Source: Candidatus Eiseniibacteriota bacterium
GTDB lineage: Bacteria > Arandabacterota > Arandabacteria > JAGLYR01
Direction of reading: 5' to 3'
DNA length: 7,412 nucleotides
NCBI GenBank assembly: GCA_023132135.1
Contig: JAGLYR010000158.1
Coordinates: 1-7,412, forward strand
The translations under genes were made by a program, and so were the position numbers. The notes beneath the pieces were generated by a model. That model saw only the letters and a list, made by a program, of their open reading frames with translations, did not search any database and was not told where the DNA came from. Shown here one piece after another: positions 1 to 5,359 of the stretch. Each line of letters begins with the position of its first letter. Position 1 is the stretch's first letter.

Positions 1-28
1 GTGAGAAACGCAGGCTAAACGGGACCAT

Positions 29-47
29 GCTCTGACCATCTCAGAGC
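29..47. other. Perfect inverted repeat (7-bp stem, 5-base loop)
   Basis: GCTCTGA (29-35) is followed by the loop CCATC and then by its exact reverse complement TCAGAGC (41-47). No T-run follows, so it is not a convincing intrinsic terminator. It could be the remains of a terminator for a gene left of the window, an operator, or chance. No coding frame can be supported in bases 1-84, since stops occur early in all three forward frames. Confidence 0.35.
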
Positions 48-84
48 CGAGACCAAGGTGGAGTATCCGGTGTCACACTTGGTT

Positions 85-217
85 TTTCGGCTTTCGGCTT
101 TTGCATTTCGGCTTTCGGCTTTCGCATTTCGGCTTTTGCATTTCGCATTTCGGCTTTTGCATTTCGCATTTCGGCTTTTGCATTTCGGCTTTCGGCTTTC
201 GCATTTCGGCTTTCGGC
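85..217. repeat. Heptanucleotide tandem array, 19 units of three types, upstream of purA
   Basis: The stretch divides without any gap or partial unit into nineteen 7-mers. There are three unit types: A = TTTCGGC, B = TTTTGCA and C = TTTCGCA. The order is A-A-B, A-A-C, A-B-C, A-B-C, A-B, A-A-C, A-A, so most units also group into 21-bp triplets. TTT at positions 1-3 and G at position 5 never change. Positions 6-7 are always GC or CA together. The array begins after GGTT, ends in a partial TTTCA, and is followed by a C-run, a weak ribosome binding site and the purA start. No unit combination makes a stop codon on either strand, so long open frames through the array are an artefact and I do not read it as coding. 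Slipped-strand changes in copy number are likely. An effect on purA expression is possible but unproven. Confidence 0.93.
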
Positions 218-233
218 TTTCACCCCCCAGGCT

Positions 234-240
234 AGGCAGG
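234..240 (+). promoter_or_regulatory. Weak ribosome binding site of purA
   Basis: AGGCAGG ends five bases before the ATG at 246. It matches the anti-Shine-Dalgarno sequence only partly, but it is the only purine-rich stretch near a start whose protein begins exactly at the conserved N-terminus of the family. Confidence 0.5.
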
Positions 241-245
241 TACTC

Positions 246-1508
246 ATGAGCGTCCGAGTTGTCGTTGGCTTGCAATGGGGCGACGAAGGCAAAGGCAAGG
301 TCGTCGACTACCTTGCCCGGGACGCGGACTACATTGTCCGCTACCAGGGAGGCGCGAACGCCGGTCACACCGTGAAGGTGGAAGACCGGATCTATGTCTT
401 CCACCTGATTCCCTCGGGGATTCTTCATCCCTCCGGGATCTGCGTGATCGGCAACGGTGTCGTGGTGGATCCCGAGAGTCTGGTGGAAGAGATCGCCGGT
501 CTGGAGAGCCAGGGCATAGATGTCTGCGGGCGCCTGAGGATTTCCCACGCGGCCCACCTGGTACTGCCCGTCCATCGTCTTCTGGACCAGCTCTATGAAT
601 CTTCGAGGGATGCACCGCGGATCGGGACCACTGGCCGGGGAATTGGGCCCGCCTACTCGGATAAAGCCGGGCGGGTAGGTATTCGCATGGTGGATCTTCT
701 GGATGAGAAGTCCCTGGAGGCAAAGCTGACGGCTCTGTTGGGACGTCACCGGGCTGTTCTCGCCGGAGCTCCGAATTCTCCGCCGGGTGTCTCCGATCTC
801 CTGCAGCTCTGCCGAGGTTACCATGAGCGCCTGGCTCCCCTGATCTCGGATGTGTCCGCCATCATCAACCGGGCGATCGACCAGGGGAAGTCCGTCCTTC
901 TCGAAGGTGCTCAGGGCGCTCATCTGGATGTGGATCATGGAACCTATCCCTACGTCACGTCCTCCAGCACGGTCGCGGGTGGTGCTCCGCCGGGATGCGG
1001 GATCGGACCGGCCCGGATCACCGGCGTGATCGGCATCGCCAAGGCCTACACCACCCGGGTGGGAGAGGGGCCGTTTCCCACGGAGCTGGAGGGTCCGGAG
1101 GCCCGTCATCTGAAGGAGAAAGGTCGGGAGTTTGGAGCCACCACGGGGCGTCCCAGACGTTGCGGCTGGTTCGATCTGTTGGCCGTCCGCCGCTCAGCCA
1201 TGATCAACGGTGTGTCCGAGCTGGTGATCACCAAGATCGATGTTCTGGATGGATTGCCCAGTCTCAAGATCTGTGTTGGCTACCGGACCGGGGATGGCCT
1301 CCGCGAGCAGTTCCCCATGGAACCCTGGTTTCTCCAGGACTGCCAACCCCTCTACCGCGAGTTCGATGGCTGGGGCCCGGGCGAAACCTCCGGCGGCAGG
1401 TTGCCCTCCAATGCACGTAAGTACCTCGACTTCATCTCCGGGGAGCTGGATATCCCCATCCGGCTTGTGTCCGCGGGTATGGGACGCGCGGACGTCATCA
1501 TTCTGTAA
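246..1508 (+). CDS. purA: Adenylosuccinate synthetase (IMP-aspartate ligase)
   Basis: This cytoplasmic enzyme makes adenylosuccinate from IMP, aspartate and GTP, the first committed step from IMP to AMP (EC 6.3.4.4). The 420-residue protein is full length for the family (about 430). The start is set by the N-terminal P-loop-like motif WGDEGKGK at 11-18. This puts the catalytic pair at Asp13 and His41 (in NAGHT), the same numbers as in the E. coli enzyme. Other signatures are GTTGRGIGPAYSDK (127-140), LEGAQG followed by LDVDHGTYPYVTSS (219-240), the substrate loop GATTGRPRRCGW (297-308), the guanine-recognition motif TKID (329-332) and the C-terminal VSAGMGRADVI (409-418). No frameshift or missing key residue is visible. 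It sits alone, with 150 bases before the next gene and no other purine gene in the window. The heptamer array directly upstream lies where its promoter or leader should be. No classical purine operator or riboswitch is recognisable. Confidence 0.98.
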   Translation: MSVRVVVGLQWGDEGKGKVVDYLARDADYIVRYQGGANAGHTVKVEDRIYVFHLIPSGILHPSGICVIGNGVVVDPESLVEEIAGLESQGIDVCGRLRISHAAHLVLPVHRLLDQLYESSRDAPRIGTTGRGIGPAYSDKAGRVGIRMVDLLDEKSLEAKLTALLGRHRAVLAGAPNSPPGVSDLLQLCRGYHERLAPLISDVSAIINRAIDQGKSVLLEGAQGAHLDVDHGTYPYVTSSSTVAGGAPPGCGIGPARITGVIGIAKAYTTRVGEGPFPTELEGPEARHLKEKGREFGATTGRPRRCGWFDLLAVRRSAMINGVSELVITKIDVLDGLPSLKICVGYRTGDGLREQFPMEPWFLQDCQPLYREFDGWGPGETSGGRLPSNARKYLDFISGELDIPIRLVSAGMGRADVIIL

Positions 1509-1534: not shown

Positions 1535-1645
1535 TTGCGCATCACTCGCCACTCTTCACTCGGACCACTGCTTTCCTTCAACTCCGCGCTCATTTCGCCC
1601 GACAAACATACGGGTACAAGTGCAACCCGGGCCAGAACTGAAACC

Positions 1646-1651
1646 AAGGGG
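1646..1651 (+). promoter_or_regulatory. Ribosome binding site deciding the start of the HD-GYP/HDOD gene
   Basis: AAGGGG ends seven bases before the ATG at 1659. The longer reading, from the GTG at 1620, adds 13 residues rich in Pro, Arg and Lys that match no domain, and it has no comparable upstream site. The ATG is therefore preferred. Confidence 0.55.
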
Positions 1652-1658
1652 CTCACGC

Positions 1659-3782
1659 ATGGATACATCCGTCACCTCAGAATCGGATCTTGTCTCTCTC
1701 CTCTCCACCGTGGAAGGCCGGCAGAAATTCGGCAAACGGCTCCTCCGCAATCTGCGTACCGCTGGTCTGGAGGATGACCCCCGCGTGATTGGCGACACTA
1801 TCCAAAGGGAAACGCTGGAGGCAGCCAGCGAGGAGGCGATCAAGCATTTCATGGAGCTGGTCCGGCGGAAGCTGGGTTCGGGCAATGCGCTGACCAGCCT
1901 CTTCGGGCCGGACCTGAGGAGCGTGGAGTTCATCTGGAATCACGACCGGGAAGCGGAGGAGAGCGAGCGGGAAGAGGACGAGTGGACGCCGCTCCTGGAG
2001 AAGGCCCGGGAAGCGGACGGGCCCGTCGTGGAAACCGTCACGGTGTCTTCTCTGGATGGAGTTTCCGACATCGAGGTGCCGCAGGAGGCTGCTTCAAGAG
2101 TGGCGATTCCCGTGATGGCGGGGGGCAGGAGCGTGGGCTTTCTGGCCGTCATCTACTCTCCTCCCAAGGAATTCACGTTGGGGGAAGCGCGGGTGCTGAA
2201 GGCCTCGGCCTTTGTGCTGGGACAGACGGTCCTGGAGATTGCCGGGCAGAACGAAACCCGGGGGGTTCTCTATGCGATGATCCAGTCGCTCGCCGGCGCT
2301 CTGGATGCCCGTGATTCCTATACCCGGGGGCACTCCGACCGCGTGGCGATGTATGCCATGGCCCTGGCCAATGAGATGAGTGATCAGCCGGAGGAAGACC
2401 TGGCGGAGGGATTCAGGGACCGGCTGCGGTTGGCCGCGTTGCTCCACGACATTGGAAAAATCGGGATCCGGGACGACGTTCTTCTCAAGCCGGGCTCCCT
2501 GACGAACGAAGAGTACGGGACCATCAAGAAACACCCGGTCCTGGGCGCCGAGATCATCAAGGTTTCCGGCGCGCTGGACCACGTGATCCCCGGAATCCTG
2601 TACCACCACGAGCGGCACGACGGTTCCGGATACCCCGTGGGTCTCAAGGGGGATGAAATCCCGCTGGTAGCGCGGATCATCGGTCTCGCCGATGCCTTCG
2701 ACGCCATGACCACAGATCGTGTTCATCGTCCGGGGATGTCCCACGCCGAGGCCATCGAGGTAATCGAGAGGAGCTCCGGGAGTCACTTTAATCCGGACGC
2801 GGTGGAACTGCTTCTGAGAGCCCACCGGAAAGGAATTCTCACAGCGGTGCGGGTGGCCGACGCCGCCACGTCGGAAGGAGTCCCGGTCGAAGAGGAAGGA
2901 TCCCTCATCGAGCAAGCCCATCCGGGACTGGCGGACAGTGTGCCGGCGCTTCCGGCGGTCGTGGGCCGGTTAAATTCCATGGTGAGGGATCCGGATTGTG
3001 GAGCGGGCGACATCGCCACCGTTCTCTCAACGGATGAGGGGATGGCCTCGCGGGTTCTGAAGTTCGCCAACTCCGCGTTCTATGCGCTCCCGGGACGCGT
3101 TGGCACCATCTCCCTGGCGATCACGATTCTCGGGCTCAACACGCTTCGGAACCTGGTAATCGGCGCTGCCCTGGCGGACATGACGCGATCGCTGGCCGGT
3201 TCCGCCAGGGAAGCCGAGATCCTCTGGGACCATGCGGTGGCCGTAGGTGTCTGGTGCCGCTGCCTGGCCCGGAAGTTCGGAAGTGCGGATCCGGAGGAGG
3301 CGTTCACCGCGGGACTGCTGCATGACATCGGGAAGGGCATTATCCTGCGGAGTCTGCCCGAGAGTCGCCAGAGTGTGAGGGAAAGGTTGCTCAGGCCGGA
3401 GGACACACGGACCTTCGAAATCGAAACGGTGGGGTTCGATCACTCGCAAATAGGTGCATGGGCTGCGGCCAAGTGGCGGCTCCCGGTCTCCCTGGGCCGG
3501 ACTGTGCGCTGGCATCACGAACCCGGGGGCGCCGCGGGCGAGGGTTCCGAGATCGAGAAGCTCGTGACCGTGGTGCATCTGGCCAACGTTCTGGCCTGGG
3601 GCGGGGACGCTGAGCCTGTGGTGCTGTCGCAGCTCCTGGCCGAGAAGGCGGATTTTGATATCCTGCGCAAGACCCCCGTCCGCGACGTCACTGTGATTGA
3701 GGAACTGCTGCCCGCGGTGGTTCACGGTCGGCAGCTCGCACGTGAGCTCCTGTCCGGCCAGGCGCGTCAGAAGGTCGGGTAG
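1659..3782 (+). CDS. GAF-like / HD-GYP / HDOD signalling protein, probable c-di-GMP phosphodiesterase
   Basis: This 707-residue cytoplasmic protein has no signal peptide or membrane segment. Residues about 75-205 look like a GAF sensor domain, with the strand pattern VAIPVMAGGRSVGFLAVI at 148-165 after an acidic stretch near 94-109. An HD-GYP domain spans about 210-400. It has HSDRV (His225), LLHDIGKIGI (His263, Asp264), HPVLG (His292), HHERHDGSGYP (316-326) and LADAFDAM (Asp345), so all usual metal ligands and the GYP triad are present and hydrolysis of c-di-GMP is expected. The usual RPYR motif reads RVHR here. From about 421 to 650 an HDOD domain follows, recognised by ADSVPALPAVVGRL, a downstream FANSAFYALPG, LLHDIGKG (His555, Asp556), DHSQIGAWAAAKWRLP and WHHEP (His619, His620). 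HDOD domains are generally thought to act in protein-protein signalling. There is no receiver domain, so input may come through the GAF region. The substrate and partners are inferred. The neighbouring genes do not indicate which process it controls. Confidence 0.93.
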   Translation: MDTSVTSESDLVSLLSTVEGRQKFGKRLLRNLRTAGLEDDPRVIGDTIQRETLEAASEEAIKHFMELVRRKLGSGNALTSLFGPDLRSVEFIWNHDREAEESEREEDEWTPLLEKAREADGPVVETVTVSSLDGVSDIEVPQEAASRVAIPVMAGGRSVGFLAVIYSPPKEFTLGEARVLKASAFVLGQTVLEIAGQNETRGVLYAMIQSLAGALDARDSYTRGHSDRVAMYAMALANEMSDQPEEDLAEGFRDRLRLAALLHDIGKIGIRDDVLLKPGSLTNEEYGTIKKHPVLGAEIIKVSGALDHVIPGILYHHERHDGSGYPVGLKGDEIPLVARIIGLADAFDAMTTDRVHRPGMSHAEAIEVIERSSGSHFNPDAVELLLRAHRKGILTAVRVADAATSEGVPVEEEGSLIEQAHPGLADSVPALPAVVGRLNSMVRDPDCGAGDIATVLSTDEGMASRVLKFANSAFYALPGRVGTISLAITILGLNTLRNLVIGAALADMTRSLAGSAREAEILWDHAVAVGVWCRCLARKFGSADPEEAFTAGLLHDIGKGIILRSLPESRQSVRERLLRPEDTRTFEIETVGFDHSQIGAWAAAKWRLPVSLGRTVRWHHEPGGAAGEGSEIEKLVTVVHLANVLAWGGDAEPVVLSQLLAEKADFDILRKTPVRDVTVIEELLPAVVHGRQLARELLSGQARQKVG

Positions 3783-3890: not shown

Positions 3891-5285
3891 ATGCGCGTTC
3901 GAATTCTGATTGTCTTTACCGCTCTTGCGGCGCTCCTCTTCGGCGGCTGCACGGGCAAACATGAACCCGCCCCCGTCATCGGCATATGGCAGGGTTCCCT
4001 CACGCTCATGGGCGTGGAGTACCGCATTATCTTCAGCGTCTTCCAGTACGGTGACGGCCGCCTGGGAGGCACCATGCTCCGGCCCGATGAAACCGACGAA
4101 GAACTTCGTATCACGCACATGACTTTCCAGGATGGCCGTGTTCGCATCGAGATGGGCACCATCAATGCTGTCTTCGACGGGTACTTCCGACCCGATGGCA
4201 TGGAGATGGATGGTGTCTGGCAGGATCCCCGGTTTCGGCAACGGATTGTCCTCCAGCGCCTGCCCGGCATGCCCGACCTGCGCAAACCCCAGGATCCCGC
4301 GCGGCCGTATACCTATGATGAGGAACACCTCTCATTCGAAAACCTCGACGCGCCCGCCCGGCTGGCGGGTACTCTGACACTGCCGCGGGAGGCACACCCG
4401 GTGCCGGCGCTCGTCCTGATTTCCGGCGGCGGTCCCCAGAACCGGGACGGTCTCATCCTGGGCCACCGGCCCTTTCTGGTGATGGCGGACTACTTGACGA
4501 GGCATGGGATCGCGGTGCTCCGCTTCGATGACAGGGGAGTGGGAGCTTCGACGGGAGACCGTTCGATGGCGACGACGGAAGACTACGCCGGGGACGCCCT
4601 GGCGGGAGTCGCGTATCTGAAAACCCGTGAGGAAATCGATCCGGCGAGAATCGGTCTCCTTGGGCACAGCGAAGGCGGCACCATCGCTCACATCGCCGCG
4701 GCCGGCTCTGATGATGTCGCGTTCATTGTCATGATGGCATCGCCGGGTCTGCCCGGCGATGAGTACAATATCCAGTTCGAAGAATCCATTGGCCGTGTGC
4801 AGGGTCTCACGGATGAGGTCATCGCGAGCAAACGTGCGATCCAGGAGCAGATCTTCGCCATCCTCAGGGAAACCGATCCCGACTCTGTCCTTGCAGGCCG
4901 GCTCACCGAAATCCTGGTGGGTCTTGAACCCCCGCTGTCCGTAGATCGGATCCAGTCCACCGTGGACTGGTATCTCCATCCCTGGTTCCGCTTTTCCGTG
5001 ACCTATGATCCGGCTCCAGTGCTCAGGAAAGTCAAGTGTCCCGTCCTTGCTCTGTATGGGGAACGCGATGTGCAGGTTCCGCCCGAGCGGAACGCCGAAG
5101 CCGTCGAGGCTGCACTCAGAGCCGGCCGCAACAAACACCGGCGGGTCGAGGTTCTTCCGGGCTTGAATCACCTCTTCCAAACGGCCGATACCGGGGCTCC
5201 TTCCGAGTATTCCAGGATCCAGGAGACGCTTTCTCCGGCGGTGCTGGAACTTGTTGGAACCTGGATTCTGGAACAATCCCCCTGA
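3891..5285 (+). CDS. Probable lipoprotein alpha/beta-hydrolase (dipeptidyl aminopeptidase/acylaminoacyl-peptidase-like)
   Basis: The 464-residue protein starts with a type II signal peptide: Arg2 and Arg4, a hydrophobic stretch to Phe17, then GGC with the lipid-anchor cysteine at Cys20. The lipobox is not perfect, because -3 is Phe. Residues about 28-125 are a beta-rich domain (GIWQGSL near the start, then DGRLGG and GYFRPDGMEMDGVWQ) of the kind found before this hydrolase family. The hydrolase domain follows. It has the oxyanion-side motif SGGGPQNRDG at 178-187, where relatives usually read SGSGPQNRD. It also has FDDRGVG at 212-218, the nucleophile elbow GHSEGG with Ser260, LYGERD with Asp393, and LNHLF with His427. 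The triad is complete, so an active serine hydrolase acting on peptides or esters at the cell envelope is likely. The substrate cannot be told from sequence. The 50-100 residues between the Ser and Asp motifs form an alpha-helical lid-like insert. It may have its own promoter and ends before a possible terminator. Confidence 0.9.
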   Translation: MRVRILIVFTALAALLFGGCTGKHEPAPVIGIWQGSLTLMGVEYRIIFSVFQYGDGRLGGTMLRPDETDEELRITHMTFQDGRVRIEMGTINAVFDGYFRPDGMEMDGVWQDPRFRQRIVLQRLPGMPDLRKPQDPARPYTYDEEHLSFENLDAPARLAGTLTLPREAHPVPALVLISGGGPQNRDGLILGHRPFLVMADYLTRHGIAVLRFDDRGVGASTGDRSMATTEDYAGDALAGVAYLKTREEIDPARIGLLGHSEGGTIAHIAAAGSDDVAFIVMMASPGLPGDEYNIQFEESIGRVQGLTDEVIASKRAIQEQIFAILRETDPDSVLAGRLTEILVGLEPPLSVDRIQSTVDWYLHPWFRFSVTYDPAPVLRKVKCPVLALYGERDVQVPPERNAEAVEAALRAGRNKHRRVEVLPGLNHLFQTADTGAPSEYSRIQETLSPAVLELVGTWILEQSP

Positions 5286-5319
5286 TCCTAGCCTGCATTT
5301 CTCACCAGTTTTCTGCTAC

Positions 5320-5359
5320 GGTACCGGTCCATGGGCTGCGAGGCCCCCCCTACTTTTTT
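5320..5359 (+). terminator. Possible intrinsic terminator after the lipoprotein hydrolase gene
   Basis: GGGCT (5333-5337) pairs with GGCCC (5342-5346) around the GNRA-type loop GCGA, with one G-U pair. GTA (5321-5323) can close with TAC (5351-5353) to extend the structure imperfectly. A run of six T follows at 5354-5359. The bulges make the stem weaker than a textbook terminator, but the position 35 bases after the stop codon fits. Confidence 0.4.

Follow-up and report, generated by a model that had tools for sequence, protein, structure and literature searches.

We propose that the heptamer array preceding purA is the expanded heptamer tract inside a single, truncated copy of a small repeat element dispersed in the genome, and we regard this reading as highly probable. 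Both flanks of the array match that element, here termed module II, which is present in about ten copies in the 3.4-Mb metagenome-assembled genome. The window, the 7,412-nucleotide stretch analysed as a whole, is the entire contig C66 of an assembly of 345 contigs that is 96% complete. The proposal is built from the sequence of this one draft metagenome assembly, the length series coming from paralogous copies.

Positions 85–217 of the window divide into 19 heptamers with no remainder and no indel. Their order is AABAACABCABCABAACAA, where A is TTTCGGC (n = 11), B is TTTTGCA (n = 4) and C is TTTCGCA (n = 4). Heptamer positions 6–7 are only ever GC or CA, and B and C are told apart by position 4 (C/T). 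The element lies on the minus strand, on which the units read GCCGAAA, TGCGAAA or TGCAAAA. With 19 exact units the tract is longer than expected by chance and belongs to the heptamer class of long simple repeats. A preliminary description of this DNA had reported 19 7-mers of three variants without an indel, and its coordinates, unit types, linked positions 6–7 and unit order were all correct. Its 21-bp higher-order structure is recovered by TRF as a 21-bp period at 85–220. The third-neighbour autocorrelation of the unit order is 0.75, a value that 1.3% of shuffled orders attain at some lag between 2 and 7, these unit-order statistics being post hoc, computed with the pattern already seen. Reversing the order and exchanging B with C returns the identical string; the proposed block-duplication history would account for this property. 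A diverged unit, TTTCACC (218–224), follows without a shift of register and represents the end unit of the element itself. The preliminary description missed that the array belongs to a repeated element and that the contig starts just 84 bases upstream.

At other heptamer places in the genome the same sequence stands on both sides of short tracts. A search with the copy on C43 identified about ten dispersed copies at 78–98% identity, together with the window at 196–226 (94%) and 55–109 (78%). The copies, all from the same genome and located between unrelated genes, lie on C43, C306, C314, C220, C313, C144, C44, C245 and C118, with partial ones on C129, C322 and C299. Module II consists of GGGGTGAAA, heptamers, and then CCAAGYCTGACACCCAATA..CCACCTTCACCCCGG. 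When intact it is about 60 bp and usually sits behind its upstream partner in the aligned copies, module I, a 50-bp hairpin (GCAGCAAGTGCGCACGCCGGGCTCGGCCCGGCAATCCGTCTTGCTGCAGA); its 5' hairpin arm bears the heptamers, of the form NNNGAAA and mostly four in number. On C129 module II is exactly absent between module I and the next stretch (CTGCAGA is followed directly by TCACCTC), and the modules are therefore separable.

The window copy occupies 55–226 on the minus strand (GGGGTGAAA, heptamers, CCAAG..TGACACC..ATAC..CACCTT) and is diverged and truncated, with an expanded tract. It keeps the GGGGTGAAA end, the element's 5' arm with its own diverged heptamer (218–226, minus strand), which is present in most aligned copies and is counted as unit 20. 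Module I is absent, and the copy ends after CACCTT at a junction with module IV. The TGC-type units B and C were not seen in other copies of module II. A profile of the heptamer-free tail, made from nine other copies, matches window positions 82–55 (E = 0.0035 when 359 kb are searched; E = 3 for the next match, a chance one). This stretch of flank homology, free of heptamers, is a short one of 28 bases, scoring 16.5 bits.

Tract length differs among copies in whole units. Measured from GGGG to CCAAG, six copies span 32 bases, one spans 25 and another 18, and the window copy spans 144. Each of these lengths leaves a remainder of 4 when divided by 7; in order, they amount to 4, 3, 2 and 20 units (the window count includes the end unit). 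The series comprises eight cleanly parsed copies and the window, C118 with its diverged start being left aside; across the nine other copies the tract holds 2, 3 or, mostly, 4 heptamers, against 20 in the window. If three tandem blocks are taken out, two of 3 units and one of 5, the array shrinks to AABAACAA with zero substitutions. Among shuffled orders, 0.7% contract equally far when only blocks of at least 3 units are used, and 1.4% do so if the count of AA neighbours is kept fixed. This contraction upholds the earlier suggestion of expansion by multi-unit blocks. The accompanying suggestion that the array varies in length holds among copies within one genome (2, 3, 4 and 20 units), and to that extent only. 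On C249 (L028, 8341–9153), three tandem copies of about 297 bp of a heptamer-armed hairpin element, 92–95% identical, have unchanged heptamer numbers. Their arm length has stayed constant despite 5–8% divergence, and expansion is therefore not frequent everywhere.

In the model that we favour, a copy of the element landed, or was left, upstream of purA and would have lost its 3' arm beyond CACCTT, at the junction with another repeat module. The tract would then have grown in whole-unit steps to 20 units, by multi-unit slippage or unequal recombination. The shortest history would begin with the 8-unit string AABAACAA, followed by tandem duplications of 5, 3 and 3 units. The change probably ran from 4 to 20 units. 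Slippage and recombination are both plausible mechanisms of growth, as duplication of 21–35-bp blocks fits either. The expansion was presumably mainly neutral for purA. A striking array beside an essential gene can thus be element debris, not a switch. The origin of such tracts is rarely visible; here the passage from a short tract inside an element to a long array can be read directly. The locus owes its special value to this series of 2, 3, 4 and 20 units, all borne by copies of one element in the same genome.

Downstream of the array, purA (246–1508, plus strand) encodes an adenylosuccinate synthetase of 420 amino acids (PF00709, E = 5e-166), whose best named matches are from metagenome-assembled genomes of other groups at 50–52% identity. 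The gap of 28 bases between the array and the ATG at 246 is as first described. It contains a candidate Shine-Dalgarno sequence, AGGCAGG, at 234–240 (plus strand), 5 bases 5' of the ATG. The visible leader, from the contig end to about base 227, contains nothing unique to the locus and is a mosaic of repeat modules. Scans of window positions 1–400 found no terminator and no sigma-70-like promoter (a scan confined to that promoter type), and the window matched nothing in Rfam. A 7-base periodicity near the window's score is absent from all 29 purA upstream regions taken from other genomes. On either strand, the expanded tract folds less well than its shuffles (z +2.95 and +1.6). The claim that the array regulates purA through promoter spacing or leader length is unsupported by these results, and the tract is moreover carried by an element whose copies adjoin unrelated genes; a part for the array in purA control is possible but lacks support. 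We rejected a hairpin function for the array, whose RNA structure is weaker than that of shuffles, and likewise a G-quadruplex, there being no GGG runs in the units. A coding reading (a plus-strand ORF at 58–249 and minus-strand ORFs of 85 and 364 amino acids through the array) was also rejected; open frames are automatic here because the units hold no stop in any frame. Beyond purA, window positions 1620–3782 encode a protein of 720 amino acids that combines an HD and an HDOD domain in a single chain.

The preliminary description had raised the possibility that the heptamer family is dispersed, and many intergenic tracts were indeed found across the genome. Used as a blastn query, the array matches 12 places. 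The purine-strand pattern CGARRVS in three consecutive units matches this genome 39 times on the forward strand and 13 times on the reverse. Each of the seven same-phylum genomes has 0 or 1 match, and each of the other 33 genomes in the relatives set has 0–6; among 31 genomes reached via named PurA relatives, three have a few matches. With a looser pattern there are 84 matches, spread over roughly twenty places; these genome counts derive from pattern searches and selected stretches. The search of the genome and its relatives thus yielded some twenty other places here and essentially none in the same-phylum genomes (n = 7). By our own simple gene calls, 28 of 30 tract places lie outside predicted genes. 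In 213 kb of stretches chosen because they bear arrays there are 14 period-7 tracts, against 0–1 for each of periods 4–6 and 8–11; 110 kb chosen regardless of arrays hold one period-7 and two period-8 tracts. In 227 kb from relatives of the same class, the scan found no tracts with periods of 4 to 11. The array and its flanks are absent from the 40 other genomes of the relatives set, and no similar DNA turned up in the phage collection.

Several of the other tracts are long or of a different kind. On C282 (L027, 9575–9740), a 166-bp heptamer tract of the CGAAAGC/CGAAAAC type starts 2 bases past the stop codon of a gene whose product terminates in ..VVIPAGDAEKT and stops about 30 bases short of a response-regulator-like gene starting MARILIIDDEEKM, within an apparent single operon. 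On C11 (L180, 8763–8889) a tract runs from a stop codon and drifts from ACAGAAA through CGAGAAC to TAGAAAA. Eight-base purine-rich tandem tracts of the GCGACAAG and GCGAGGGC types, heptamer-like in look, occur at L186:6858–6933 and L193:3985–4063.

Compared with shuffles, folding is stronger for module I (z −4.5), for intact module II (z −3.3) and for the paired forward and reverse heptamer elements of C249 (z −5.6). A heptamer-armed hairpin on C301 (L185, 4184–4255) lies between convergent genes, with its stem 10–11 bases from both stop codons (−49.6 kcal/mol, z −6.6); in its predicted fold it looks like a bidirectional terminator. All seven tracts within 40 bases of a stop codon have the purine strand in the mRNA sense, two of them being arms of one hairpin. 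The purA array has the opposite sense and stands before a start codon.

These observations bear on several other readings of the array. It might be a contingency (phase-variable) locus, in which unit number alters the spacing or leader of purA and hence its expression. The distance of 28 bases to the ATG would suit such a role, recent growth would fit the three-type purity and block structure, and unit number does differ among copies of the same element. We nevertheless consider it quite unlikely, as the leader yielded no promoter of the sigma-70-like type covered by the scan, the tract is unstructured relative to shuffles and forms part of a dispersed element beside unrelated genes, the array recurs in none of the 29 other purA upstream regions, and similar repeats in Xanthomonas are considered unlikely phase-variation devices (PMC4692102). 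An independent family of simple repeats of the STRR type, originating by local slippage, would make the likeness of the flanks to module II coincidental or a product of shared heptamers. Many tracts without a recognisable module II flank (for example those on C282, C11 and C327) would agree with this. It is already disfavoured and, in our judgement, improbable, because the heptamer-free tail was detected alone, in the right place and on the right strand, and the opposite side of the array carries the GGGGTGAAA end.

The heptamers could instead be repeated protein-binding sites on DNA or RNA, making the array a high-affinity regulatory platform. The uniform mRNA sense of the purine strand near stop codons points this way, as does the annotation of four-heptamer elements in Geobacter as putative global regulatory elements (PMC2700814). 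Against it, the units differ widely among places with no conserved unit set or gene class, and no binding protein is known here; the idea is very doubtful. An assembly artefact is the hardest of these readings to credit. The window is one whole short contig among the 345 of the assembly, and its first bases fall within a dispersed repeat, but the array is internal to it and 133 bp long, its ordered three-type mosaic would be hard to make by collapse or chimera, and other long tracts, such as that on C282, lie inside longer contigs. A last reading takes the heptamer hairpins as regulatory or transcript-end elements used genome-wide in the lineage and the purA array as tunable, its unit number setting expression. 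It arises because the purine strand is mRNA just after stop codons and hairpins lie between convergent genes, and we hold it to be very improbable. Expansion within a truncated copy of module II remains the preferred account.

STRR sequences are tandem degenerate heptamers between genes of filamentous cyanobacteria, with units such as CCCCRRT. The comparison with STRR made in the preliminary description holds in kind, both being dispersed tandem degenerate heptamers, but fails for the units, as TTTCGGC, TTTTGCA and TTTCGCA are not known STRR sequences. Dispersed heptamer tracts are the commonest long simple repeats in several bacteria, and heptamers are summarised as the most abundant class of long simple repeat in the majority of surveyed bacterial genomes (Mrazek et al. 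2007, in PMC4679880). A close parallel in organisation is a 49-copy element of Geobacter metallireducens with four tandem heptanucleotides GGACCGG (features Gmet_H4##; PMC2700814). Like it, module II is a dispersed multicopy element with typically four tandem heptamers (most full copies have 4, one has 3 and another 2) in a genome rich in intergenic multicopy sequences. The heptamers are unrelated, NNNGAAA as opposed to GGACCGG; Gmet_H4 also occurs inside genes, and the portion of the Geobacter account drawn on here mentions no expansion to about 20 units (PMC2700814).

The Xanthomonas GGGAATC and Nostoc GGGGA(T/C)T repeats form heterogeneous dispersed tracts of 2–26 units, four being commonest, for which phase variation was judged unlikely; the same source mentions Calothrix heptanucleotides (PMC4692102). 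They share with the present family dispersed, mainly intergenic mosaic heptamers with length variation, but are G-rich and quadruplex-forming, whereas here there are no GGG runs and the tract lies within a defined palindromic element. The TAACTGA direct repeats of Beggiatoaceae are likewise dispersed intergenic heptamer arrays adjoining genes (PMC4679880); they have a single invariant unit in two to six copies and are mostly start-codon-directed, in contrast to the variable units without start-codon preference found here. As in REP/BIME mosaics and MITEs, short hairpin modules are combined between genes, and one 181-bp module has inverted ends (PMC3733652, PMC3116915). Unlike REP/BIME, module I (GCAGCAAG...CTTGCTGCAGA) lacks the GTAG/CGTC end tag, and a Y1 transposase is indicated only by one partial PF01797 match (29.7 bits, on C145) with no module I, II or V nearby. 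Spread of REP sequences driven by a RAYT was rejected, the sole partial Y1 match being away from the modules. The present family is of a known kind but is a new, unrelated member, its units and carrier elements differing from known ones. Scans of IMG/VR gave nothing for one of modules I and II and, for the other, one possibly chance match.

The start of the window is itself composed of repeats. Positions 1–63 have 40 scored matches in the genome, the best at 88–93% identity over 44–63 bases. Positions 18–57 (plus strand) are a dispersed module IV (AACGGGACCATGCTCTGACCATCTCAGAGCCGAGACCAAG), and positions 1–17 (plus strand) are the terminal inverted repeat (GTGAGAAACGCAGGCTA) at the end of module V, a MITE-like repeat of about 181 bp, with 17 of 17 bases matching that end. 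A contig start inside module V fits an assembly break within a repeat. Module V is short and multi-copy with terminal inverted repeats (TAGCCTGCATTTCTCACCAG), as a MITE should be; complete 181-bp copies have their ends inverted about 161 bp apart (for example L188:17634–17814, at 96%). No transposase was found among the ORFs around the shared end motif at two IMG/VR loci where a parental transposon was sought. This motif, GTGAGAAATGCGGGCTA, ends near-identical stretches of about 105 bp at the ends of viral metagenomic contigs in IMG/VR (L343:107–123; L345:108–124 and 4670–4686), which suggests that it may be a widespread transposon end. Within the window, positions 5289–5347 hold a truncated module V copy (98% over 59 bp) directly 3' of a hydrolase gene.
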